Shown in pieces: positions 164 to 13,686 of a stretch of 16,356 nucleotides of DNA. The first letter of the stretch is position 1. Each line of letters starts with the position of its first letter. The notes below the pieces were generated by a model that was given only the letters and a program-made list of their open reading frames with translations, had not been told where the DNA came from and searched no databases. Both the position numbers and the translations under genes were made by a program. Source of the stretch: Candidatus Hydrogenedentes bacterium CG07_land_8_20_14_0_80_42_17 (GTDB lineage: Bacteria > UBA8481); assembly GCA_002780065.1 (NCBI GenBank), contig PEWQ01000139.1, forward strand, positions 1 to 16,356, in the 5' to 3' direction.

Positions 164-1129
164 TTATATTTTATCTAAAAGATTTTCCATTCGCTTTTTT
201 GAAGGAGGCACTGAGAAAAATGTCGAATGAGTTTCTCCATCGAGATTCCACGACCATATCTGCATTGGATGCTTTCCATCATAGACTAGAGTGAAGCCGT
301 AAAATTTATTCGCGATAAATTCTTTTTTTGTTATCGGAAGAAGAGTGCGGTACCAATGCTGTTTTGGCCACTCTTTGCGAGGACCTAAATTTAATTCTTT
401 GTCTTCGCAGAGCTTTGAACTCCACCATAAAAGAATAGAATTTGCAAAGCAATTTTCTCTGACGGAAAGTTTAACTTTATCCTCAAAACATTCATCCGAC
501 ATTTTATAGAGATCTAAATCTTTGAAAAAAGATTCTTCTCCGAGAATTTTAGTTTCTTTGCTGGAATCGGGATAGAAGTCATTCGAGACGTTCTCGATGA
601 AAGCAGAAAAATCAATTCCGTATCGCTCCTGTTTCCAAAAATCGGAGACCTTTTCAAGAAGAGGAGACCATGCTAATGCGGCATGAAACCGTGCAGAGCA
701 GGGAATTAGAACTCCATCAGGTTTGAGAAATCTCTTTCCATTCTTCATCACGGTTATCAGAGTTTCGTCAAGAAGCACGTTACCGAGCATCTCGCTGACG
801 ACAATATCGCAAGGCTCGATAGAACTTGAATCAATATTTGCAATGTCATTTTCGATGAATTCGATTTTGCAGTTGTTTTTTTTCGCGAGTGCTTTGGCGA
901 ACTCGATCATGTCCGTTCGCTCCACAGCGTAAACCTTTGCGCCCATCTTTGCCGCCGCAACAGCAAGAACTCCGGTTCCTGTTCCGATATCCAGCAATAC
1001 TGAATCAGTGTGAATATGTTTTGAAATTGCATCGATAAAAGATTTAGTGCGAGTTTCATCATCTAACAACAAAGCATGATAGGAGAGCATTGACATTGGA
1101 GAGGAGGAATTATTCAGGGCACTAGCCAT
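164..1129 (-). CDS. PRMT-like class I SAM-dependent methyltransferase
   Basis: This 321-residue protein has a protein arginine methyltransferase fold. The N-terminal helix resembles PRMT helix X (LLDDETRTKSF, 21-31). Motif I is LDIGTGTGVL (46-55), followed by acidic E70, which should bind the ribose of S-adenosylmethionine. The double-E loop SEMLGNVLLDE carries E113 and E122, nine residues apart as in eukaryotic PRMTs, where the two glutamates grip the substrate guanidinium. The C-terminal barrel has QHW (257-259), matching the THW loop. It is the last gene of the PqqD/radical-SAM/peptide cassette and its ATG lies inside the 3' end of the peptide gene (16-base overlap). The start is uncertain: no good ribosome binding site is visible and a hairpin abuts the ATG, so it is probably translated by coupling. 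Met12 and Met14 are alternatives. The substrate is unknown; the Arg-rich neighbouring peptide is an obvious candidate. Ribosomal or other cellular protein targets are possible. Confidence 0.85.
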   Translation of the reverse strand: MASALNNSSSPMSMLSYHALLLDDETRTKSFIDAISKHIHTDSVLLDIGTGTGVLAVAAAKMGAKVYAVERTDMIEFAKALAKKNNCKIEFIENDIANIDSSSIEPCDIVVSEMLGNVLLDETLITVMKNGKRFLKPDGVLIPCSARFHAALAWSPLLEKVSDFWKQERYGIDFSAFIENVSNDFYPDSSKETKILGEESFFKDLDLYKMSDECFEDKVKLSVRENCFANSILLWWSSKLCEDKELNLGPRKEWPKQHWYRTLLPITKKEFIANKFYGFTLVYDGKHPMQIWSWNLDGETHSTFFSVPPSKKRMENLLDKI

Positions 1130-1338
1130 GGCGGCAGAGCCGCCGCACCTTCACCACCTGAACACAGATCAGGATTAGTGCACTTAAACGAATTTGTCAC
1201 ACCAGAGGCGACTTGATACTCCTGAACGTCTCCTTTCTTAGGACGATATCTTGTGAGTTCAGGTTTTTTCCAGTCTTTACGACTCCTGTCTTTACGACTC
1301 CAGTCTTTACGGTTTTCAGAAATTTTTGAACTGCCCAT
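1114..1338 (-). CDS. Putative RiPP precursor peptide (74 aa)
   Basis: This small basic peptide lies between the radical SAM and methyltransferase genes. ATG at 1338 is preferred: AAAGGG sits six bases upstream and it lies 31 bases after the radical SAM stop. A TTG 45 bases further upstream stays in frame but overlaps the radical SAM gene. Residues 10-23 are three copies of a pentapeptide (RKDWS, RKDRS, RKDWK). Residues 23-41 (W-x-x-P-x-L, then Gly-Asp-Val) resemble the leader motif Y-x-x-P-x-L-x-x-x-G that PqqD-like recognition elements bind in lasso and related precursors; ELTRY also gives the PqqA-type E-x3-Y spacing. The C-terminal part holds Cys53 and Cys59 (CTNPDLC), then a Gly/Ala-rich and Pro/Trp-containing tail; this is the likely core. 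The core has no Arg; all six Arg lie at residues 10-32. I know of no named family for it. That it is the substrate is inferred from position, size and motif. Confidence 0.72.
   Translation of the reverse strand: MGSSKISENRKDWSRKDRSRKDWKKPELTRYRPKKGDVQEYQVASGVTNSFKCTNPDLCSGGEGAAALPPWLVP
1130..1144 (-). promoter_or_regulatory. Hairpin abutting the methyltransferase start codon
   Basis: On the minus strand GGCGGC-TCT-GCCGCC forms a perfect 6-bp GC stem ending at the base before the methyltransferase ATG, while also encoding part of the C-terminus of the peptide gene. It would block independent initiation, so translating ribosomes from the peptide gene would have to open it. It could equally be the trace of an inserted palindromic repeat. 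Confidence 0.4.
1271..1311 (-). repeat. 15-bp in-frame tandem repeat in the peptide gene
   Basis: Units at 1271-1285, 1286-1300 and 1301-1311 (partial) have period 15; the first two differ by a single base. That base turns the Trp codon TGG into Arg AGG in the middle copy. The near-identity at DNA level points to recent duplication inside the coding frame. Confidence 0.85.
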
Positions 1339-1369
1339 TTTTTCCCTTTGTAATATCCAATATTCATAT

Positions 1370-2401
1370 TCAGAAATTGTCAAGCCCCAACCATGCGGCT
1401 GTTATCTCACAGTGCAGAGGAGACGGTTCTTCATACTTGCCGGTCGATAAATGAAAGAGTCCCATACATCGAAATTTACAGGAGGCTTCCATTTCACAGT
1501 TAGAACATAAATCAATCTTTTCGTTTTTTCTTCTTCTCAACTCGTTCATGCGTTCAGAGTAGCGCCATACCTCGCGAAATGATTTCGTTTTGACTTCGCC
1601 AACCGGTTCTTTGACTTGGGAACAAGGATAGATTTGGCCGTGTGCGTCAATTGCAAAACGATTCCATCCCATGTTGCAGAAGTAAGGCCCGTTTTCGTCG
1701 TGGCAGTTAGAGAACGAGGGCCTGCCGGTCCATTCAGAATAATCGTGTTCACATTGCCGAATCTCTTTCGGAGTCAGCCTGTCTTCGAGAAATTCATTTT
1801 CATTGGAATTGAACCGCGGAATGATGTAGTAGGAAGGTCCGAAGATTGTTCCAATATCTCGACTCCATTTTGCTAAGAGAGATGCATCATGGAAGTTCGA
1901 ATGCATGAGCGACATTTTGATAACTGTTTTCAAACCGAGCTTTACGGCGTATTCGGCTAATAATTTGCAGTGAGTGAATGAACCTGCTGCTCCGACAAAT
2001 TTGTCATGAGTTTCTCCCCATCCGTGCATTGAGATATGAAGTTCGCGGCAGTTGTTTTGTGTTAGAAATTCCGCATCCGCTTCAGTCATTGCGAAACCGT
2101 TTGTCATTATTTCATAACTGAATTTAAGTTTATTTGCTTCCATAATTATTTTGCGCCAGTCTGGATGAAGAAGCGGTTCGCCTCCGGAAAACGTAAGATC
2201 CATACAACCTTCAGTTTTAAATTCTTCGAGCAGTCTTAGCCAATCATATAAAGTTAATTCGTCTCCGATAAGTTTTGAAGCTCGGTAGCAATGAGGGCAA
2301 GAGAATTGGCAACGGTCGGTCAGATAGATATGACCGAGAATTGGAACGCAGAGCGATTCCAGACGGTCGAGAAGAGTATCTAGATTTTTTTCCTGAATCA
2401 A
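1370..2401 (-). CDS. Radical SAM/SPASM peptide-modifying enzyme
   Basis: This 343-residue radical SAM enzyme has the cluster motif C31-x3-C35-x2-C38, the SAM-binding GGEP at 73-76, and a complete C-terminal SPASM domain. The SPASM pattern is exact: C242-x12-G255-x4-C260, a gap, C299-x2-C302-x5-C308-x3-C312, a gap, C331. It should ligate two auxiliary 4Fe-4S clusters besides the SAM cluster. Family members with a PqqD-like partner (PqqE, MftC, sactisynthases, cyclophane synthases) form C-C or thioether bonds on ribosomal peptides. The likely substrate is the peptide encoded 31 bases downstream. Translation appears to start at TTG (2401), overlapping the preceding stop as TTGA; there is no Met before residue 67 in this frame. 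The bond type made cannot be read from the sequence. The enzyme acts in the cytoplasm and is oxygen sensitive by class. Confidence 0.9.
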   Translation of the reverse strand: MIQEKNLDTLLDRLESLCVPILGHIYLTDRCQFSCPHCYRASKLIGDELTLYDWLRLLEEFKTEGCMDLTFSGGEPLLHPDWRKIIMEANKLKFSYEIMTNGFAMTEADAEFLTQNNCRELHISMHGWGETHDKFVGAAGSFTHCKLLAEYAVKLGLKTVIKMSLMHSNFHDASLLAKWSRDIGTIFGPSYYIIPRFNSNENEFLEDRLTPKEIRQCEHDYSEWTGRPSFSNCHDENGPYFCNMGWNRFAIDAHGQIYPCSQVKEPVGEVKTKSFREVWRYSERMNELRRRKNEKIDLCSNCEMEASCKFRCMGLFHLSTGKYEEPSPLHCEITAAWLGLDNF

Positions 2402-2673
2402 GCGGCCGATTCCAGAATGAGCTCTTCGCGGACAAGGTCTGCAATAAGTTCATCCAGATCGTTTGAAGCTGTTGTGTTTTCGACTTCGAACTCTTCAAGT
2501 ATCGACTTTAGAATTTCTTCTCTAGTTTTAGGAGTTTTTTCCATTCTCTTCCAAATAAATGTGCCGATCGGGTCCAGAGAATAATATGTTGTCGTTTTAA
2601 TCTTCAGTATCACAACTTCGTTATCGATGACTCGCCATGCGAGGTCGGGATTAATTGAGTATAAACTTGTCAT
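2398..2673 (-). CDS. PqqD-like RiPP recognition element protein
   Basis: This 91-residue protein has PqqD-family features: an N-terminal beta region (LAWRVIDNEVVIL, 12-24), the typical YYSLDPIGTFIW segment (30-41), and two helices rich in acidic and hydrophobic residues ending in DLDELIADLVREELI. Free-standing PqqD proteins bind the leader of a precursor peptide and present it to a radical SAM partner. Here the partner is the next gene, which starts on this gene's stop codon (TTGA overlap), so the two are translationally coupled. It is the first gene of the cassette. No Shine-Dalgarno sequence precedes the ATG at 2673, and the predicted -10 lies so close that the mRNA may be leaderless. Confidence 0.87.
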   Translation of the reverse strand: MTSLYSINPDLAWRVIDNEVVILKIKTTTYYSLDPIGTFIWKRMEKTPKTREEILKSILEEFEVENTTASNDLDELIADLVREELILESAA

Positions 2674-2679
2674 GATAAT

Positions 2680-2708
2680 ATTTTATGTTTTACATTGTTA
2701 AACTGCAA
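2680..2708 (-). promoter_or_regulatory. Predicted sigma-70-type promoter of the peptide cassette
   Basis: On the minus strand TTGCAG (2708-2703) and TAAAAT (2685-2680) are separated by exactly 17 bases. Only six bases (ATTATC) lie between the -10 and the ATG of the PqqD-like gene, so a start site at the usual distance falls on or beside the start codon. That agrees with the lack of a ribosome binding site there. Confidence 0.5.
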
Positions 2709-2958: not shown

Positions 2959-3465
2959 TTATCTCTTTTCCGAAAATGGCGAAATAGCTTTTAGAAGAAA
3001 TTCGTAAGCGTTTGAGTAGATTCCTGGTGATTGACTTTCGCGCGGGCCTGCAATATTCAGTATAGTAATTGAGTTCTTTAAAATCCAATCTGAAACTATC
3101 TTGCAGGAATTAATGCCTTCGTTAAGATCAATTGTCAGCAGTGGCTTAGCTAATTCCTCTGCAACTTTTTTTGTGTATGCGGTTCCGCTCTCCTTTCTTA
3201 TATCTTCCCGAAAAAGTATCAATGTCCCTGAAGAAGTCTGAACATTGAGTCGCGTTCTGACATCGTATCTTTCTGAGCCGGCTTCCCTCAGCGGATATTT
3301 TTTTGGTATTCCTCCGTCTTCGCTCAATCGCCCTTTAGGACACCAACCTCCACAAGGTATTTTCAATTTCAGCGCCACATCGAGCGCGGCTCTGTCTACT
3401 CCGGTCTGCCCTCCGGAAATTATTGCGATCTTCCGAGAAATGGCTTCTGCTATTCCGGTATCCAT
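2959..3465 (-). CDS. SLOG-family (molybdenum carrier-like/YpsA-like) protein
   Basis: This 168-residue protein has the Rossmannoid nucleotide-binding signature SGGQTGVDRAA (17-27), GGWCPKGR (39-46) and EDGGIPKKYPL (49-59), then an RTRLNV segment and a GTLIL strand. These match the family often annotated as putative molybdenum carrier, assigned to the SLOG superfamily with YpsA and LOG proteins, which are thought to bind or process nucleotide-like ligands. ATG at 3465 is chosen because GGAG stands just before it; a TTG four codons upstream is also open. The gene overlaps the 3' end of the upstream cyclase gene by 16 bases, so it should be co-translated with it. A role in sensing or handling the cyclase product is inferred from this linkage only. 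The biochemical activity is unknown. Confidence 0.8.
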   Translation of the reverse strand: MDTGIAEAISRKIAIISGGQTGVDRAALDVALKLKIPCGGWCPKGRLSEDGGIPKKYPLREAGSERYDVRTRLNVQTSSGTLILFREDIRKESGTAYTKKVAEELAKPLLTIDLNEGINSCKIVSDWILKNSITILNIAGPRESQSPGIYSNAYEFLLKAISPFSEKR

Positions 3466-6400
3466 ACTCCATCCCAATCAGTTTCCGGCGGATTTTTCCG
3501 AAGCTCTGCAATGCGCTCTATGTATTTTATCGAAGGCCCGTCTTGAGGTACAATCTTAAGTATCTCACGGAATACTTTTTCTGCTTCGACCCAATTGCGT
3601 TTCAAATAATGTTGTCTTGCCTCTTCAAATTTATCTTTTATGAGCAGATGCTTATCCGATACTTCGCGGAAGGTAGAAAAGTATTCATGAAATGCTTCGG
3701 CACGCTTGCTGTCTCTAAGAGTGCCTAGAAAGATATCTATTTCGTGTCTGATTTTTGAAACCTTGCTGTCGTAGTTTCTCTTCATCTTTTCGATGTCTTC
3801 TGAGTTTTCACGGCATATCAAAGATTTTAAATTATCGGAAAGTTTATTCTCGACTTCGCTTCCCGAAAGATTGCACCTCTTTACAAAACATGCAGTGCGT
3901 TTTTCTAAAGCGTCCAGCCTCTTCATTAAATCGTCGTATTCGTCCTTGCTGAAGGAATCACGAATCTCTTCACAATTTTCGATTACTTTCGAAATTCGCT
4001 TTTTCCATTCATCGAGTTTTATCTTCCATGAGTCCGATTCTATCTTTGCGTGAACATCATTTTTAGTTGCAGTTATAGAAAGTTTTTCTTCAAGACTATT
4101 TATTTCTTTTTCAAAATTGGAAACAAGAATAGAATCTTCCGATTTCATCGCGTCAACCGCATCATTCTTTAATTTTCCAAATAATTCCTGAATTTCTTTT
4201 CCGATTCCGCTTTCGCCTTTCTGAGCGAAGTAATAGTGATACCCTAACAGTTTTTCAGGAGTCATATTTCGCCATCCTTCAAAGAAGAGCGGATGAATCG
4301 GCTTTCCACTCCAAAACGATAAATAAGCGGCTTTAGACCAGCCTAAAGGTTCATACACGCTGATGTGAAGATGAGAAGGCCCCATTGCGGCTACATCCAG
4401 AAGCCGGCATATTACTGAACCTTGAACATTTTTTTCTGTTTCACCGCTGATTGCTATCCACGATTCGTAGAGTTTGTTGATTGGTTCGAGCTCTTCCGCT
4501 AAAGCTACTCCCTCTCCCATTACTGTGTATTGCATTCTGCGCTCTGAACCCATATTGCCTGCAGAAACTATTCCGGAATTTACTCCCATGCGCGCCGTGA
4601 TTTTTACTCCGTATTTCAAAAGAATCATTCGAGCAATTGCAATTAATTCTTCCTGCTGTTCCATTGCCGCAAAGACGCCTTTCAAAGCATGCTGTGAGTC
4701 TGTAATTGGAACCCCGAACTCGGCCTTTATTGCATCACCTTCATATTTGTCCGCGAAGCCGTCGTATTTCATAATGATGTTGGACATTGGAGTCAGATAG
4801 CTGTTCAGTATTCCGGCAAGTTCCTGAGCTGTCACTCCTTCTGAAATTGTCGTAAAGCCGGAAACGTCGGACGAAAACATTGTGGCTTCTTTGCGCTCGC
4901 CGGCGAGTTTGAAGTTGTCGGGATTTTCTTCCATCAATTTGAGAATCGTGGGTGAAATCATCGCTGAAAAAAGTCCGCGCACCTTTCTCTTTTCTTTCTG
5001 CGCCGACCAGTAGTTGTATAATATTCCTGTAAGGTGCGAGAATACGATTGAAATGATCGGAGGTGTAATCGGCAGAACAATTCCATAACGCGCAAAGCCG
5101 CCCCACGCAAGCCCTGCATATCCCAAAACTGAAATAGAGGAAATAATTATCTGCAATAAAGTTCCGAATCGAGTGACTAGAAATACTGTTATCAATGAAT
5201 AAACAAATATCAATGCGTATGTCAGCCATGAAGGAGCTTCATGAATAAATCCGCCGGTCATCACTGTGTTGTAAACTGTCGGTTGAATTCCGAACATTTG
5301 AGATCTTTTTTCATATGGAGTCGGATTCAGCGAATGAAGAGCAGTCGCAGTCAAACCGATGAAAATTGTTTTGCCTTTTAATTGAAGAGGAGACCATTCG
5401 ATTTCTCTGCCATCTATTTGTTTTATCGGAGTTGTTATAAATAGGGGAGGAGTGAGTTGATCGAAATATCCGTGATCATACATATACAGCATCTGCTCGA
5501 AACCTTTGCGAAGAATTATTGAGTCTTTCAATTTCAGCTCGGTCAACAATTTTTTGTAATCAGGTCTTACACCGTTTTGAAGTTCAGAGAGCGCAGAGAT
5601 ATTTAATTTTACAATATTCCATCTCGTGAGACCTATTTGATCAGAGTCTTTGCCTCCGAGATATTCATTGAAAAAATTCTCGTATTCTTTTCCGTTGCGG
5701 ATGAAATATTCTGCAACCTCTCCGTCTATGATCGTCCATGATAAAATTTGAGCTTCCTCTTCGGATACAATTTTAGTATTCATTATTGAATCGTAAACCG
5801 CGCTGAAAAACGGCTGGATATTATCAGGCTCGAATTGCAGTTCCGCAGCTTTGCTTTTTCCTGCAATGAACGCGTAATGTTCCGCAATAACCAAAAATGG
5901 AATGTGGGGTATTCGATAATTGTAAGGACCGACCCAGTTAAGCGCCATTAGGCCGTGCTTATCTATGGGAATATTTACTTTTTTTCCGTCGGAATATCGT
6001 GCACCCTCGAATTCGATCGAATGGCCTGGAACTATTTTAATTCTTTCCTTTGTTATTCCGAATTTTCTCGCCGCAATTGACAACCCGAGATTCAGATACG
6101 CTTTTCCATCGTAAAGGATTATGGCCGGAGTGTGCCTGACTACACCGTCTCCGTCGTGAAGTATTCTATTAAATCCGATTCCTGCCGCAACCTCTGCAAT
6201 CTCCGGTATAGGAGTTTTTACTCGTCTCGCATTAGGCATCAAACCATGAGAGAATATCTCGATTCCAAATCGCTTGATCGATTCTGCGTCTCCGGATGCT
6301 GCAATAGCATCTTGATTTTGAAGTTCTTCTATCTTTTCCGGTATAGAAAAATCGGCGCAGACTTGAACTCTGCCTGCAGATTTCATTGCTGATTTTAAAT

Positions 6401-6899
6401 CTTCGATTGGATGCGGAATTACTCCTGAAATATCTTCTTTCTTCTTCAAAACTTCGTTTATTTTGTCAGAGAGTTGATATGCGGCATCTACTTGCAAAGT
6501 GATAGGATCTTTTTGACTGAAATGATCATCGCTGAATCCAATTGTCTCTGCTCCGAACATCTCTAGCGCTTGAACTAGAGCCGCATGCCGCTCCCACGAC
6601 CATGGCCATCTTCCTAGAGTTTGTATTGAGGTTTCATCCCAGTCGATGGTCATGAGATCCGGATCGACGAGCGGCTCGCAAATTTTATCTCTGGTCAAAA
6701 ATCTTAAATCTTCCAGAAATAAATCGATATCGCGAAAGACTCCAATGAAGTTAAGCAAGGAGATGAAGAAAAAGATAGGAATGCTAAAGAGCAAAGCGCG
6801 TTTCAAAGGCTTTGAAATAGCGTCGAGTAAAAATTCTTTTAACCTAATGAAGTTGACTTCTATCCAGGGCTTGAACGAATCAAATATTCTGGAAATCAT
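3450..6899 (-). CDS. CHASE2 class III cyclase, C1-like (metal-binding) subunit
   Basis: This 1149-residue membrane protein starts with one transmembrane helix (about 35-54). A CHASE2-like extracytoplasmic domain follows (DWDETSIQTLGRWPW at 86-100, extending to about 550), then three membrane segments (about 558-628). The cytoplasmic class III nucleotide cyclase domain spans about 638-855. The tail is a helical, coiled-coil-prone region (about 900-1085), then a TPR-like unit ending in WDGVW, a tail common in this family. In the catalytic domain both metal-binding Asp residues are present (D678 in SSDVSGF, D722 in YEGD), as are K718 and T792 of the purine pocket. The transition-state Asn and Arg are replaced by A799 and E803 (GEGVALAEEL), so a homodimer should not be catalytic. 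The adjacent paralogue has the reverse set. ATG at 6899 has AGGAAG nine bases upstream and lies three bases after the upstream gene. Product nucleotide: probably cAMP from the Lys/Thr pair. Confidence 0.9.
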   Translation of the reverse strand: MISRIFDSFKPWIEVNFIRLKEFLLDAISKPLKRALLFSIPIFFFISLLNFIGVFRDIDLFLEDLRFLTRDKICEPLVDPDLMTIDWDETSIQTLGRWPWSWERHAALVQALEMFGAETIGFSDDHFSQKDPITLQVDAAYQLSDKINEVLKKKEDISGVIPHPIEDLKSAMKSAGRVQVCADFSIPEKIEELQNQDAIAASGDAESIKRFGIEIFSHGLMPNARRVKTPIPEIAEVAAGIGFNRILHDGDGVVRHTPAIILYDGKAYLNLGLSIAARKFGITKERIKIVPGHSIEFEGARYSDGKKVNIPIDKHGLMALNWVGPYNYRIPHIPFLVIAEHYAFIAGKSKAAELQFEPDNIQPFFSAVYDSIMNTKIVSEEEAQILSWTIIDGEVAEYFIRNGKEYENFFNEYLGGKDSDQIGLTRWNIVKLNISALSELQNGVRPDYKKLLTELKLKDSIILRKGFEQMLYMYDHGYFDQLTPPLFITTPIKQIDGREIEWSPLQLKGKTIFIGLTATALHSLNPTPYEKRSQMFGIQPTVYNTVMTGGFIHEAPSWLTYALIFVYSLITVFLVTRFGTLLQIIISSISVLGYAGLAWGGFARYGIVLPITPPIISIVFSHLTGILYNYWSAQKEKRKVRGLFSAMISPTILKLMEENPDNFKLAGERKEATMFSSDVSGFTTISEGVTAQELAGILNSYLTPMSNIIMKYDGFADKYEGDAIKAEFGVPITDSQHALKGVFAAMEQQEELIAIARMILLKYGVKITARMGVNSGIVSAGNMGSERRMQYTVMGEGVALAEELEPINKLYESWIAISGETEKNVQGSVICRLLDVAAMGPSHLHISVYEPLGWSKAAYLSFWSGKPIHPLFFEGWRNMTPEKLLGYHYYFAQKGESGIGKEIQELFGKLKNDAVDAMKSEDSILVSNFEKEINSLEEKLSITATKNDVHAKIESDSWKIKLDEWKKRISKVIENCEEIRDSFSKDEYDDLMKRLDALEKRTACFVKRCNLSGSEVENKLSDNLKSLICRENSEDIEKMKRNYDSKVSKIRHEIDIFLGTLRDSKRAEAFHEYFSTFREVSDKHLLIKDKFEEARQHYLKRNWVEAEKVFREILKIVPQDGPSIKYIERIAELRKNPPETDWDGVWIPE

Positions 6900-6902
6900 A
6901 TC

Positions 6903-9900
6903 TTATTTCTTCCTTTGAATGAATTCGCCCTGCCACTCTGCGCCTGGCGGATTCACTTTATATTCGTCAATTCTCTTTATGAGTTCAGCTGATGGACTGT
7001 CGTTTGACTTGAATTTTAGAGCTTCTTCAAGAAAAGATTTTGATTCGTCCCATTTCCTCTCAAAATAACTCTGCATTGCTTTCTCAAATCGAGTTCTCAT
7101 TTCAATTTCATTTTGAGAAGGCGCGCCGGCTTCGGCTATCGCTTCGTGATATTCATCTTTTCTCAGAGACAGCTTATTGAAAAATGAGGCAACTGAATTT
7201 CGATATAATGTTTGGTTCTTCTTTGCTGTTTCTTCTGCGCCGTGGAACTCCTTGCCCTCCAGTTTTTCGCGCATCGCCGCTAATTTGCGGGCAATAGACT
7301 CTATTCCGGATTTGGGCCGCTTCGGCAGGTTTTCGATTAAGAGCTCTATCTTTCCTTTCATAGTTTCTATTGAAAGAACAAGATTCGACAAAGTTGTGGA
7401 ATCAATATCTGTTTTCTTTTCGGAATTCTTAATCGTATCAATTCGCTCTTTTAAATTCTCTACGCGTTTTAAATATGCCAGAAGTTTTTGCCGCCATACC
7501 GGCTCAGAACTCGATGCAAGAGCATCTTCCGCTTTGTAGTTTTTGTCGTCCAGAACTCTGCATCTCTCCTCTAACTTTTCTAGTTCGCTCTTAAGTCCGT
7601 CAATAGATAAAACTGCAAAATTTACGATTATATTTTCTACAGTGGAAATTTGACTTTCGAAGAAGTCTGCAATCTCTTTAGCAATAGAAATATTTTTTTC
7701 GCGTTCTATTCTGCGCCATAGTTCAATGTATCCGAAAACTTTTTGAGGAGGAGACAAGAGCCATCTTCTTAGAGCAGAATCACTAAGAGGCTTGCCGCGT
7801 TTTTCAGATAAGTATGCCTCTGGTTTCCAGCCCATTACTTCATAGATAGTTGTCGGCTTTGTTTTGCCTTTCAAAAGTATTCTGTCTAAAAGTCTCAATT
7901 CGATTTTATCGCTTACTAACGGTTGCGTGGATTCTCCGGTAATTATCGAGGTGCCGTAAATTCCATTTGCAGGCCTGAATCTCGCCGAAACATTTACTGC
8001 ATCACCCATGACTGTGTATTGCATCTTCTTTTCCGAGCCCATGTTTCCGGCCGATATGTAGCCGCTGTTTATTCCCATTGTCACTTTTACTTCGGCGCCA
8101 TATCGCGCGAGCACAAAGAGCCGAAAGGCTTCTATGTCAAGCTGTTGTTCAATCGCTGAGAAACAACATTTCCACGCATGATCTGTATCGTCGAGCGGAA
8201 CTCCGAAATCGGCCATGATTACATGACCTTCGTATTTGTCGATATACCCGTCGTAATCCATGATTATCTCGCTTGTTGGAGTGAGATAATTTCCGAGAAT
8301 GTGAGTCAGTTCTTCAGGCGCCTCCCGCTTCATTACATCTCCGAAACCTTCTATTGCGGAGAACATTATCGTCGCTTCTTTGCGCTCGCCTGTTAGAGAA
8401 AATCGGTCCGGATGCTCTTCCATCAGTTTTAAAACCCGTGGAGATACCATCGTCGAGAATAAGTTCCGCACTCGTTGCTTTTCGATTATTGCTTTTATTA
8501 AGGCGATTAAAACCTCGCCTGACCATGTGCCGGCAATTCCCATTAGCGGAGCCGCCGCAGGAACCCATTGACCATTTTTATTCCATGCCCATAAAACGAA
8601 AACGATATATCCTCCGGATATAAGTGATGCTCCTATAAAAGATTTTGACGGCGACAGTAAAGCAGAAATAATTCCTACGATTATCGCGAAAAATAATGTC
8701 CAGATGATTTCGTTGTACTTGCCGGGAAATCTGAGAAATTGTTCTGTGAGAATCGTATTCAGCGTGTTCAGATGCAGAGCCACCATGGGACATGCGCTTT
8801 GATATGGAGTCGGATTGAGATCGATTGTTCCTTCGCCGGTAAGCCCGACCATATAAATTCTGCCCTCGAGGTCAACAGGTGAAAAACTTTTTTCTTTGCC
8901 GGAATTGATTACGGAAAAGGGCAAAGGAAAGAAGAGCGGCCGCATTGAATCTGCCATCGAACGCTTGGCAAAAAAATCTATGTTCTTTTTTATCTCTTCA
9001 GTCCATTCTTTTTTTAGAGATGATGAGTTGGCTGAACTATTGCCGTCTGCAATTGAATTCGCATATTCGACAGCGTCTATTATTTCTGAAAGTTCATTTT
9101 TATTCGTTAGTCCGAGTTTTTGAAATTCTTCAAACAAACCTTTCAGAATAGTTTCTTTATTGGAACCGTCTTGCATCATGCCTTCTGCTATGCGAGCTAC
9201 GGTTATTTCAATGGAAATTTTTCTAATTGAATCAGCAGAGCATAAAATTTCGCCGGATAATACAGAATGAATTTTGTTGAATATCGCAGGAACTTTATCA
9301 GGTTCGGCAGGATATAACATTGATAGTTTCTTAGCTGTATTCAGAGCGTAGATCTCTGCAATGTCGCTGTAAGAAACATGAATGCCGTGTTCAAGAAATT
9401 CGCCTGCCCAATTTACAAGCATTTGGCAATTCTCGTTTACAGGTATTTGAATTGTTTTTGTGATAATTTTTTTCGGATCGCTTCGGCTGTTTATTGGAAT
9501 TTTTGCGTTCGGGAACTCGGCATAATGTCCGGGAACGATTTGAATTTTGTTTAGCGGAACTGAAAACATTTTGGAAAGGATAACAATAGACAGAGCAGGA
9601 TACGCCTTGCCGTTGTATTGAATGAAGAGAGGGGAGAGCCGCACTGTTTTGTCCATATCCTCGGTTATCTGAGCGAATCCGATGCCTGCTGATGCTTGGA
9701 CAAATCGCGCGAGAGGCGGAACTACATCGATACAACTGAACAGTTTTTCTTGCATCTCTTTGCCTGCGGGAATTGAGAATTGCTCTGCAATTTCAAGAGC
9801 GGCTTTTTTCTCTTCAGACTGCATTGCAAAAATTCGGTCTACTTCTTTTTGAACTGCGACCTTGTCGCTTCGGATTTCAGGCGGAGCTAAAATCATGAAT

Positions 9901-10379
9901 TCAGGGAGGTAAATGTTGCCTGCGTTTAGAATTGATTCTTCGAGCTCTAAATCATAATCGCGAAAAGCTGTTTCTGCCGACGGCTCCTTGTGATTTGAAG
10001 TATCGGACAAAATTTCATGGATTCTTTGAGGATTAAAAACGATATCGTTTGGCTCGGTAAAGAAGACATCGTATCCGACAACTTTTGCGCCGTACAGACT
10101 CATTGCTTGATTGAGCGCTGTCTCACGATTTCGAGTCCAAGGCCATTTTCCAAAGGTGATGATTGATCTGTCGTCAAAATCGATATATCCGAGATCGTTT
10201 CTGAAATGAATCGGCGGCCTGAATTTATAGTTTAAATCAAGCGCTATAAGTTTGATTCTCGAAAAGGTTTCGGTTTGACTGAAAATTAAAAGAATCAATG
10301 CGACTGCAACACCGAATAACAGTCCGCGAATAGCAATTACAAGTTTGAAGATGGGGATGTTTTTTATTTTGCTTTGCAT
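6903..10379 (-). CDS. CHASE2 class III cyclase, C2-like (metal-site-less) subunit
   Basis: Residue numbers here count from a GTG at 10400 (1165 residues). The better start is the ATG at 10379 (1158 residues), because GGGGAG lies nine bases before it. The layout mirrors its neighbour: N-terminal helix (about 18-42), CHASE2-like sensor region (FDDRSIITFGKWPW, 75-88), three membrane segments (about 564-636), cyclase domain (about 645-855), long helical region, and a TPR-like tail ending in NPPGAEW. The two catalytic Asp positions are lost: A682 in FSAIEGF and H726 in KYEGH (CAT, one base from Asp). The transition-state pair N803 and R807 is intact (GDAVNVSARF), as are K722 and T796. That is the C2-type half of an asymmetric cyclase. 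It should supply purine-binding and transition-state residues to the metal site of the neighbouring subunit. Alone it is predicted to be inactive. It lies 37 bases downstream of a tRNA-Val. Confidence 0.9.
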   Translation of the reverse strand: MQSKIKNIPIFKLVIAIRGLLFGVAVALILLIFSQTETFSRIKLIALDLNYKFRPPIHFRNDLGYIDFDDRSIITFGKWPWTRNRETALNQAMSLYGAKVVGYDVFFTEPNDIVFNPQRIHEILSDTSNHKEPSAETAFRDYDLELEESILNAGNIYLPEFMILAPPEIRSDKVAVQKEVDRIFAMQSEEKKAALEIAEQFSIPAGKEMQEKLFSCIDVVPPLARFVQASAGIGFAQITEDMDKTVRLSPLFIQYNGKAYPALSIVILSKMFSVPLNKIQIVPGHYAEFPNAKIPINSRSDPKKIITKTIQIPVNENCQMLVNWAGEFLEHGIHVSYSDIAEIYALNTAKKLSMLYPAEPDKVPAIFNKIHSVLSGEILCSADSIRKISIEITVARIAEGMMQDGSNKETILKGLFEEFQKLGLTNKNELSEIIDAVEYANSIADGNSSANSSSLKKEWTEEIKKNIDFFAKRSMADSMRPLFFPLPFSVINSGKEKSFSPVDLEGRIYMVGLTGEGTIDLNPTPYQSACPMVALHLNTLNTILTEQFLRFPGKYNEIIWTLFFAIIVGIISALLSPSKSFIGASLISGGYIVFVLWAWNKNGQWVPAAAPLMGIAGTWSGEVLIALIKAIIEKQRVRNLFSTMVSPRVLKLMEEHPDRFSLTGERKEATIMFSAIEGFGDVMKREAPEELTHILGNYLTPTSEIIMDYDGYIDKYEGHVIMADFGVPLDDTDHAWKCCFSAIEQQLDIEAFRLFVLARYGAEVKVTMGINSGYISAGNMGSEKKMQYTVMGDAVNVSARFRPANGIYGTSIITGESTQPLVSDKIELRLLDRILLKGKTKPTTIYEVMGWKPEAYLSEKRGKPLSDSALRRWLLSPPQKVFGYIELWRRIEREKNISIAKEIADFFESQISTVENIIVNFAVLSIDGLKSELEKLEERCRVLDDKNYKAEDALASSSEPVWRQKLLAYLKRVENLKERIDTIKNSEKKTDIDSTTLSNLVLSIETMKGKIELLIENLPKRPKSGIESIARKLAAMREKLEGKEFHGAEETAKKNQTLYRNSVASFFNKLSLRKDEYHEAIAEAGAPSQNEIEMRTRFEKAMQSYFERKWDESKSFLEEALKFKSNDSPSAELIKRIDEYKVNPPGAEWQGEFIQRKK

Positions 10380-10416
10380 TACGATTAACTCCCCACGCAC
10401 TACGCATCATAATCTT

Positions 10417-11775: not shown

Positions 11776-13686
11776 TTACGCACAACTAATCACTCTCTTC
11801 TCTAATACTTCTCTGTGCCAGAGTTCGAGCATCAAGAGCGCCCAGAGTTTATTCGCATTGTTTTTCATTCCTGATTTGTGCTCGCTAATTAATGTCTCTA
11901 TCGAAGAGCGCTTGAAATAATTTCGGCCTATCGATTTATTATCGAGCAGAACCTCTTTCAAAAATTCATGAAGTTCATTTCTGAACCAGTGAGAGACCGG
12001 CATGCTGAATCCCATTTTTCTCCGAAACATTACTTCGTCAGGTATTATTCCGCGGTGCGCATCCTTCAAAATCTTTTTCGATTGAAACATTCCAACCTTC
12101 CATTCGCGCGGTAGAGACGCCGCAAACTCCATAATCGAAGTATCCAAAAGCGGCGATCGCGCTTCGAGTGAAACAGCCATCGACGCAATATCTACTTTTA
12201 CCAAGAGCGTGTCCGGCAGATACATAAGCGTATCGGCGCGCAATACTTTGTCGATTTCATCCGCTTCAGTCATCGAGTCTGCATTCATGATCTCGAAGAG
12301 ATATCGGTCCGCATTGTATCCATTCAAACGCGTTTGAAATTCGTCGCTGTAAAGTTCTTTTCGCTGATTGAGATCGAAATATTCAAAGAGACTTATGTTG
12401 AATTTATCAGGTTCGAGACGAGCCGCCGCCGCAAATCTTCGTATCTTCCGAGGAATCGAACGATTCATTGAGCCTTCCGGAATGAATTTTGTGGCAGACT
12501 CGAACAGAGAGCGCAGAGGCTCATTGGTCATCGACCTGAAGAGCTTGTAAAAGAGCAATGCACGGTAGCGCTCATACCCGCCGAAAAATTCGTCGCCTCC
12601 GTCTCCGTTTAAAGCAACAGTCACTCTCTGCCGCGTCACCTGACTTACGTAATAAGTCGGCAAAGCCGACGAATCTGCGTAAGGCTGGTCGTAATGCCAA
12701 ACAAGTTTTGGCAATATCGAGATTGCGTTAGGCTCAACAATAAATTCTTCATGTTGAGTTCCGAATTTTTTTGCGATTATTCGCGCGTATTTGGTTTCGT
12801 CAAAATCGGATTGAGGAAATCCTATTGAGAATGTCTTTACCGGCGCATCTGAGACCTCAGCCATCGCGGCGACTACTGCTGATGAATCAACTCCGCCGGA
12901 AAGAAATGCGCCAAGAGGAACATCTGAAATTAATCTGCATTTAACTGCATCTAAAATTAATTCTCTCAGTCTCAGTTTCGCGTCCTCGTAATTCATTTTT
13001 GTTTTTTCAGACCAATTAGCCTCCCAATATTTAGATACCTTTGCGTGACAGTCGGGTTTCCATATCAGCATGTGGCCGGGCGCAAGACGCTTTACTCCGT
13101 CAAATATTGTGTGCTCGCCGGGAATCGATTGATATGCGAGAAATAATTCAATTGAGCGCGGATCAATTTGCCTCGGACAATTTTTAAGAACTAGCAAAGC
13201 TTTAATCTCCGAGGCAAAATAAATTCCTTCGTTGTCTTCGAAATAGTAGAGAGGCTTCTTACCGATTCTATCCCGAGCAAGCAGCAAAACTTTTTTTCGG
13301 GTATTCCATATTCCTAACGCAAACATTCCGCGAAGTCGATTAAGAAGCTCCGCACCTTTTTCTTCGTAAAGATGAACTATAGTCTCCGTGTCGCTTCGCG
13401 TTCTGAATTTGTGACCGAGCGCTTCAAGTTCTAGTTTTAATTCAGGAAAATTGTAGATCTCTCCGTTGAATGTTATCCATACGCTTTCGTCTTCGTTGCT
13501 CATGGGTTGAGCTCCGCATTCGAGATCTATGATCGAAAGCCTGCGATGCCCGAATCCACAGCCGGCAAGCGCAATATTGCCTTCACCGTCAGGCCCGCGG
13601 TGAGCCATGGTATCGCACATTCGACGAATTAATTCTTTGTCCGGAACTTTTCCGTCGCGATATAGAATGCCGGCTATCCCGCACAT
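11776..13686 (-). CDS. asnB: Asparagine synthase-type glutamine amidotransferase
   Basis: This 636-residue two-domain enzyme has an N-terminal class II glutaminase (Cys2 nucleophile in MCGIAGI, R49 in HRRL, FNGEIYN at 73-79, D99). A C-terminal ATP-pyrophosphatase domain follows, with the P-loop SGGVDSS (263-269) and the downstream NGDGGDEFFGGYERY (360-374). All residues expected for glutamine-dependent amidation are present. It starts one base after the upstream GT2 stop, with GGCGGA as ribosome binding site, and is the last gene of a GT-C/GT2/AsnB operon. Homologues in glycan loci often amidate uronic acids or other carboxylates rather than making asparagine. That role is as likely here as asparagine synthesis. 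The length is normal for the family. Confidence 0.92.
   Translation of the reverse strand: MCGIAGILYRDGKVPDKELIRRMCDTMAHRGPDGEGNIALAGCGFGHRRLSIIDLECGAQPMSNEDESVWITFNGEIYNFPELKLELEALGHKFRTRSDTETIVHLYEEKGAELLNRLRGMFALGIWNTRKKVLLLARDRIGKKPLYYFEDNEGIYFASEIKALLVLKNCPRQIDPRSIELFLAYQSIPGEHTIFDGVKRLAPGHMLIWKPDCHAKVSKYWEANWSEKTKMNYEDAKLRLRELILDAVKCRLISDVPLGAFLSGGVDSSAVVAAMAEVSDAPVKTFSIGFPQSDFDETKYARIIAKKFGTQHEEFIVEPNAISILPKLVWHYDQPYADSSALPTYYVSQVTRQRVTVALNGDGGDEFFGGYERYRALLFYKLFRSMTNEPLRSLFESATKFIPEGSMNRSIPRKIRRFAAAARLEPDKFNISLFEYFDLNQRKELYSDEFQTRLNGYNADRYLFEIMNADSMTEADEIDKVLRADTLMYLPDTLLVKVDIASMAVSLEARSPLLDTSIMEFAASLPREWKVGMFQSKKILKDAHRGIIPDEVMFRRKMGFSMPVSHWFRNELHEFLKEVLLDNKSIGRNYFKRSSIETLISEHKSGMKNNANKLWALLMLELWHREVLEKRVISCA

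Follow-up and report, generated by a model that had tools for sequence, protein, structure and literature searches.

A conserved peptide cassette of Candidatus Hydrogenedentes that probably combines lasso-type leader handling with a SPASM radical SAM enzyme and a PRMT-fold enzyme

Main finding

The present analysis is concerned with a cassette of four packed minus-strand genes that lies at one end of contig PEWQ01000139.1 of Candidatus Hydrogenedentes CG07_land_8_20_14_0_80_42_17; the whole contig (16,356 nt, C150 in our numbering) was analysed and is referred to as the window. The four genes encode a PqqD-type recognition element (RRE) of ribosomally synthesised and post-translationally modified peptides (RiPPs), a radical S-adenosylmethionine (SAM) enzyme with a SPASM domain (rSAM), a 74-residue peptide, and a methyltransferase of the protein arginine methyltransferase (PRMT) fold. 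We have found that they are probably four genes of a six-gene RiPP pathway, in which the parts B1 (the RRE), B2 (the leader protease) and the kinase are of the type that is found in lasso peptide clusters, while the SPASM and PRMT-fold enzymes replace the lasso cyclase. If this is correct, lasso-type RRE, B2 and kinase proteins would serve a SPASM enzyme rather than a lasso cyclase, and PRMT-fold proteins, which are mainly known from eukaryotic gene regulation, would become bacterial peptide-tailoring partners.

A preliminary description of the window had already proposed a RiPP pathway for this cassette; the role of the peptide as an RRE-presented substrate stands, while the statements on the protease and on the closest relatives have had to be corrected. 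The features to which the text refers are the following:

2398 to 2673, minus strand: PqqD-type RRE (lasso B1-like), 91 aa, predicted to present the precursor leader (Pfam PqqD, PF05402, 8e-18)
1370 to 2401, minus strand: radical SAM/SPASM maturase, 343 aa (Pfam Radical_SAM, PF04055, 8e-19; SPASM, PF13186, 3e-12)
1409 to 1678, minus strand: SPASM cysteine cluster region of the maturase, C242 to C331, from the cysteine pattern
1114 to 1338, minus strand: precursor peptide, 74 aa, MGSSKISENRKDWSRKDRSRKDWKKPELTRYRPKKGDVQEYQVASGVTNSFKCTNPDLCSGGEGAAALPPWLVP; ATG at 1338, stop ending at 1114
1269 to 1313, minus strand: three tandem 15-nt repeats, coding for Arg/Lys-rich SRKDW-like units, directly before the leader motif
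1246 to 1272, minus strand: leader recognition motif W23-x-x-P-x-L-x-x-Y31 of the lasso YxxPxL type, from the alignment with lasso and rSAM precursors
1117 to 1221, minus strand: predicted core peptide EYQVASGVTNSFKCTNPDLCSGGEGAAALPPWLVP, after V(-2)Q(-1); the cleavage site is derived from a spacing rule (see below)
164 to 1129, minus strand: PRMT-fold methyltransferase, 321 aa
764 to 793, minus strand: double-E loop of the PRMT-fold enzyme, E113 to E122
115 to 173, no strand assigned: short repeat downstream of the PRMT gene

The genes lie where the preliminary description had placed them, with overlapping or near-touching junctions: the stop of the PqqD gene and the start of the rSAM gene overlap by 4 nt, 31 nt separate the rSAM gene from the ATG of the peptide, upstream of which the sequence AAAGGG occurs, and the stop of the peptide gene overlaps the start of the PRMT gene by 16 nt.

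Conservation of the cassette in a second genome

The phylum is represented in the search set by two genomes, namely that of the window (G000) and that of Candidatus Hydrogenedentota isolate J006 (G001, RFFU01000032.1), which belongs to a different family. The G001 locus was detected solely by a two-row alignment of the C-terminal half of the rSAM protein, the single-protein rSAM scans of the collection giving no match. All four genes are kept in the same order in G001, with identities of 59% for the RRE, 48% for the rSAM enzyme, 42% for the peptide and 39% for the PRMT-fold enzyme, and because this order is conserved in a genome of another family, the peptide is a real gene. Its local alignment with the G001 orthologue scores 139, against 25.3 +/- 4.8 (maximum 48) for 2000 shuffles; conservation is concentrated in a [WY]xKP...RYR segment and in the C-terminal half, EYQxA[ST]GxxNSxxCxNPDxCxxG...PxWL[VI]P.

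The preliminary description had made its proposal dependent on the peptide being present and unbroken beside homologous enzymes, and on the PRMT gene being linked in relatives: in G001, the only other genome of the phylum in the set, the peptide is linked and in frame, and the PRMT gene is linked as well. The co-occurrence that it had suggested looking for is also found, as the combination of a SPASM enzyme, a peptide and a PRMT recurs in another phylum (genome G039, see below).

The missing kinase and protease

The preliminary description saw no protease beside the cassette. The contig, however, stops 163 bp beyond the stop of the PRMT gene, and in G001 the gene that follows is a convergent HprK-like kinase, upstream of which, on the same strand, lies a 146-aa lasso-type B2 peptidase; the apparent absence is therefore most likely due to the contig ending there. 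In the genome of the window, another contig, C57, begins with neighbouring orthologues of the kinase (41% identity) and of B2 (43%). The B2 proteins of both genomes exceed the curated NCBIfam cut-off for lasso B2 peptidases (lasso_biosyn_B2, NF033537), and each is the sole match over the cut-off of PF13471 in its genome.

The edges of C150 and C57 carry the same short element (15/15 and 27/32 bases), located downstream of the PRMT gene on the former and downstream of the HprK gene on the latter; no further copy was seen in the stretches of this genome that were scanned. A repeat at the contig edge is a likely explanation for the assembly break. We infer that C150 and C57 are neighbours in the genome, and that the kinase and the B2 protease most likely belong to the cluster.

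Leader recognition and the predicted core

The best NCBIfam match of the RRE is lasso_PqqD_Bac (1e-13, under its curated cut-off), and the best solved structure for its family is TbiB1, a lasso RRE (2e-12). The “WxxPxL segment” that was noticed previously is W23xxP26xL28 of the peptide and forms part of the lasso leader motif [YW]xxPx[LIV]xxY, with Trp replacing Tyr in the window and Tyr being present in G001. This motif is shared by four lasso precursors whose genes neighbour PRMT homologues, and by the peptide of a further rSAM-peptide pair that both genomes of the phylum carry. RREs are known to recognise W/Y/LxxP sequences (PMC12710340); in lasso precursors, YxxPxL occupies positions -17 to -12, and some that are phosphorylated have Ile or Val at -2 (PMC10368454).

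The -17 spacing, applied to the lasso loci, places Thr at -2 and Asp at position 8 or 9 in 4/4. In the window and in G001, it places Val and Ile at -2, respectively, and gives a core of 35–37 residues (EYQ...CxNPDxC...PxWL[VI]P), whose predicted start coincides with the onset of strong conservation (EYQ) in both. A core start after A-[S/T]-G was also considered and gave way to the -17 rule, with which all four lasso loci agree. Under this rule, positions 7–9 of the core are GVT in the window and GPV in G001, i.e. there is no Asp or Glu ring acid.

A macrolactam cyclase (PF00733) is absent beside the cluster at the G001 locus, at the window cassette and on C57. PF00733 proteins do exist in both genomes, and those with a readable N-terminus start with MCGI, like glutamine-dependent asparagine synthetases, some others in G001 not having been read. 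The asparagine synthetase of the window (11776–13686) was rejected as a lasso cyclase: it has the MCGI start and a GATase domain, and is located about 9 kb away between glycosyltransferase-like genes. The gene set thus appears to use lasso-type leader handling, with an RRE, a YxxPxL leader and a transglutaminase-like B2 peptidase (in the cluster in G001, at the contig edge in the genome of the window), yet it lacks two defining features of lasso pathways, the cyclase in the cluster and the ring acid. The free RRE next to a SPASM enzyme is as the preliminary description had it, but the closest relatives of the PqqD protein, the protease, the leader and the kinase are those of lasso pathways, and not those of the pyrroloquinoline quinone (PQQ) and mycofactocin pathways.

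The radical SAM/SPASM enzyme and its peptide partners

The cysteine patterns that had been read in the rSAM enzyme are all present with canonical spacing: C31xxxC35xxC38 in the radical SAM domain, and seven SPASM cysteines (C242-x12-G-x4-C260, C299xxC302x5C308x3C312x18C331); the enzyme thus has the CX3CX2C and seven-Cys motifs of SPASM RiPP maturases, with the precursor gene adjoining. Among proteins of solved structure, the sactisynthase SkfB is its closest relative (1e-28). The enzyme falls far under the curated cut-offs of every named family, with ScmE as the best NCBIfam match, and its structure model (predicted local distance difference test score, pLDDT, 45) is too poor to use.

Outside the phylum, the closest relative of the rSAM enzyme that was found is encoded in genome G133 (L029:5452-7355), in an operon of an RRE, a B2-like protease (just below the Pfam cut-off), an rSAM enzyme and a 66-aa peptide, without a PRMT or a cyclase. 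This operon is a simpler relative of the window cassette, and a lasso-type RRE/protease pair that would serve a SPASM enzyme has thus been seen twice. The conserved C53 and C59 of the core suggest possible thioether crosslinks; the enzyme is likely to form either a thioether via this C-x5-C pair or a carbon-carbon bond to the conserved Trp.

Elsewhere, both genomes carry another conserved SPASM rSAM gene that is followed by a gene for a Cys-rich peptide (contig C53, L028:2970-4224, in the genome of the window; contig C58, L007:977-2313, in G001). This peptide has nine Cys in its predicted core and a YxKPxLxxY leader like that of the main peptide; because no PqqD gene is seen in these stretches, the second pair may share the RRE and the B2 protease of the main cluster.

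The PRMT-fold enzyme and its target

The PRMT-fold protein combines a Pfam methyltransferase domain with the oligomerisation domain PRMT_C (5e-9), and matches yeast Hmt1/PRMT1 (2.7e-24) over residues 17–263. The best solved structures for its AlphaFold model (mean pLDDT 65) are all PRMTs (E about 5e-20). Both catalytic glutamates, which had been noted previously, are kept in the double-E loop, SE(113)MLGNVLLDE(122), so that a Rossmann SAM domain, a PRMT barrel and the two catalytic Glu residues occur together. The THW loop is altered: it reads QHW in the window and QSW in G001, with a two-residue insertion, the Trp being conserved and the His being kept only in the window.

The preliminary description regarded this protein as a second tailoring enzyme. 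It is a genuine, linked partner of the cassette, but the absence of Arg from the predicted core of the window weakens the simple reading that it methylates a core arginine; the G001 core contains one Arg (GRGFG), with Glu at that position in the window. In the window, the target may be located in the N-terminal part of the peptide, another nitrogen may be methylated, or the cut site may lie elsewhere. Among the homologues, an intact double-E tends to occur together with Arg in the peptide (many in G214, two in G851, two in G039, one in G001) and a lost Glu with no Arg (G002, G653, G539); G753, with one Arg and no double-E, departs from this trend, and the main exception is the window itself, with both glutamates and an Arg-free predicted core.

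The N-terminal part of the peptide is rich in Arg and Lys, with R30 and R32 invariant between the window and G001. Together with the Arg-free core, this is what speaks for an alternative in which the PRMT-fold enzyme has a regulatory role and modifies the Arg-rich leader stretch, or another protein, instead of the core. We consider this alternative doubtful, as RRE/kinase modules and precursor peptides repeatedly accompany PRMT-fold genes across several phyla, the peptides being RG-rich in one case.

In our sample of 290 genomes, a relative of the window-type PRMT was found in 9, and in 6 of these the gene adjoins a PqqD gene (the window, G001, G002, G039, G055 and G214). In G039, which belongs to a different phylum, the locus encodes an RRE, a radical SAM protein of the SPASM-maturase type along with another radical SAM protein, a 54-aa peptide, an HprK-like kinase, the PRMT, a signal peptidase and an NTP_transf_5 protein. 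Four further loci combine an RRE, a lasso-cyclase-like PF00733 protein, a kinase and a PRMT; in two of them a B2 gene can also be seen. In G214 (L044:1626-2283), two tandem RG-rich peptides (GRGVARGRG...) are encoded beside an RRE, an HprK-like kinase and a PRMT, which is cut by the contig end and has an intact double-E; RG repeats are the classic substrate of PRMT1. Most PRMT homologues of the phylum to which G055 belongs are located in RRE-kinase-PRMT modules within exopolysaccharide-like loci (L046, L086-L095), and nearly all lack the second Glu, which makes them possible pseudoenzymes.

The pairing of a PRMT with a SPASM enzyme therefore holds as previously described, but as one case of a wider association between PRMT-fold proteins and RRE/kinase modules, which seems not to have been described; the PRMT homologues have diverged too deeply for their tree to show whether the SPASM-PRMT pairing has a single origin. 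Among plasmid sequences there is no match for the PRMT of the window, and one homologue, from Tropicibacter, occurs outside any RiPP context. In line with the earlier statement that no described RiPP class combines a SPASM enzyme with a double-E PRMT, no paper joining a PRMT and a RiPP pathway was found in the open-access full text, a scope that leaves out subscription-only work and preprints and thus leaves novelty unproven. A review of RiPP methyltransferases mentions no PRMT (PMC11285071), and the passages found of a review of lasso modifications contain no arginine methylation (PMC9266682).

A broader reading, to which we give somewhat less than even credence, is that PRMT-fold proteins form a family of RiPP tailoring enzymes guided by RREs, a family that is both widespread and undescribed and whose members adjoin modules with SPASM enzymes, lasso cyclases and kinases in several phyla; double-E members would N-methylate the precursor (at Arg in RG-rich cores, e.g. 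in G214), and the window would represent a new RiPP class that adds SPASM crosslinking on a lasso-type leader. For genome mining, the link provides the rule of a PRMT_C gene adjoining a PqqD gene.

Proposed pathway and alternatives

Whereas the genes, their conservation, their families and the leader motif are observed, we infer that all six act on the peptide, in the following steps. The RRE would bind the precursor leader via the W/YxxPx[LIV]xxY motif and present the core to the SPASM enzyme, which would introduce a crosslink; the most likely candidates are a thioether that involves one Cys or both of the C-x5-C pair, or a C-C bond to the conserved Trp. The PRMT-fold enzyme would methylate a nitrogen of the precursor, and the HprK-like kinase would phosphorylate Ser or Thr, with S45 (Thr in the orthologue) and S50 as candidates. 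The B2 protease would cut after V/I(-2)-x(-1), releasing the core of 35–37 residues, and no macrolactam would be formed, as the cluster has no lasso cyclase and the core no ring acid.

Several points weigh against this pathway: the comparison within the phylum covers two genomes only, the product, its modification and the activities are predicted from the genes, and the contig with the HprK and B2 genes is a probable, unassembled neighbour of the window. The methyl target is not evident from the Arg-free core, the C-terminal Ser that paeninodin-type lasso kinases phosphorylate is absent, the C-terminal residue being Pro instead, and no exporter is seen beside the cluster.

The last of these points speaks for an alternative that we consider unlikely, according to which the peptide is the precursor of a small intracellular redox cofactor or signalling molecule, as in the PQQ and mycofactocin pathways, and not of a secreted peptide. 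The cassette is present in both genomes of the phylum examined, the core is strongly conserved between families, and neither an exporter nor an immunity gene is located beside the cassette in the 98-kb contig of G001, all of which would suit a cofactor; the RRE, B2 and leader are, however, of the lasso type, no oxidoreductase user or cofactor-specific genes adjoin, and the C-terminus is WL[VI]P rather than the VY of mycofactocin precursors. It is very improbable that the product is a true lasso peptide, closed by a cyclase acting from elsewhere in the genome and tailored by the rSAM and PRMT-fold enzymes: the lasso-type B1, B2, kinase and leader and the PF00733 proteins of both genomes fit it, and an N/S..D ring can be drawn with a later cut (NSFKCTNPD / NSKLCKNPD), but the cluster has no cyclase in either genome, the PF00733 proteins with a visible N-terminus resemble asparagine synthetases, and the predicted core has no Asp or Glu at positions 7–9. 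Anti-phage defence was rejected, since the PADLOC matches concern only generic rSAM and methyltransferase parts (viperin, mad2), whose partners are absent.

Surroundings of the cassette

The single promoter that had been proposed for the cassette is not borne out, as promoter-like matches are no more frequent than chance would give (7 against 6.4), and the best of them overlaps the start codon of the PqqD gene. A near-identical 36-nt unit (CGTCATGGAGGCACAGGCGCCTCGCGTCAA...) occurs in two copies upstream of the cassette (2762–2797 and 2881–2916), and two tandem large genes (3450–10400; 1149 and 1165 aa) encode membrane proteins that, by reading, resemble CHASE2-type adenylate cyclases.

Comparison with known systems

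The six-gene pathway that we favour shares several parts with lasso clusters that have a kinase (paeninodin, pseudomycoidin, BsfA): a discrete RRE, a transglutaminase-like B2, an HprK-like kinase and a YxxPxL leader at -17 (PMC10368454, PMC9266682), as well as the Ile/Val at -2 of the BsfA precursor. It differs from them in having no macrolactam cyclase or Asp/Glu acceptor at positions 7–9, in its longer core with a conserved Cys pair, and in the SPASM rSAM and PRMT-fold enzymes that it has instead.

Sactipeptide and ranthipeptide systems with a discrete RRE (StsB/StsC) likewise combine a SPASM rSAM with an RRE on a Cys-containing core, but the rSAM enzyme of the window falls far below all their curated cut-offs, and the B2 protease, the kinase and the PRMT are, to our knowledge, not parts of their clusters. 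StsC is grouped among the W/Y/LxxP-binding RREs (PMC12710340).

The PQQ and mycofactocin systems (PqqD/PqqE, MftB/MftC) also have a free RRE with a SPASM enzyme, whereas the window has a lasso-type leader and protease, a different C-terminus (WLVP) and an added PRMT and kinase; genes for the partners of these systems are absent from the sequence surrounding the cluster. The SynChlorMet cassette (ScmD/ScmE) and the HPr-rel-A system share the PqqD, SPASM rSAM and HprK-like kinase families; the window matches all of them below cut-off, has a single rSAM, and has PRMT and B2 in addition. Lastly, the PRMT-fold enzyme shares with the PRMT1/Hmt1 family the fold, the SAM motif, both catalytic Glu residues and the conserved Trp of the THW loop, but differs from it in the altered THW loop and in its operonic location with an RRE and a peptide.

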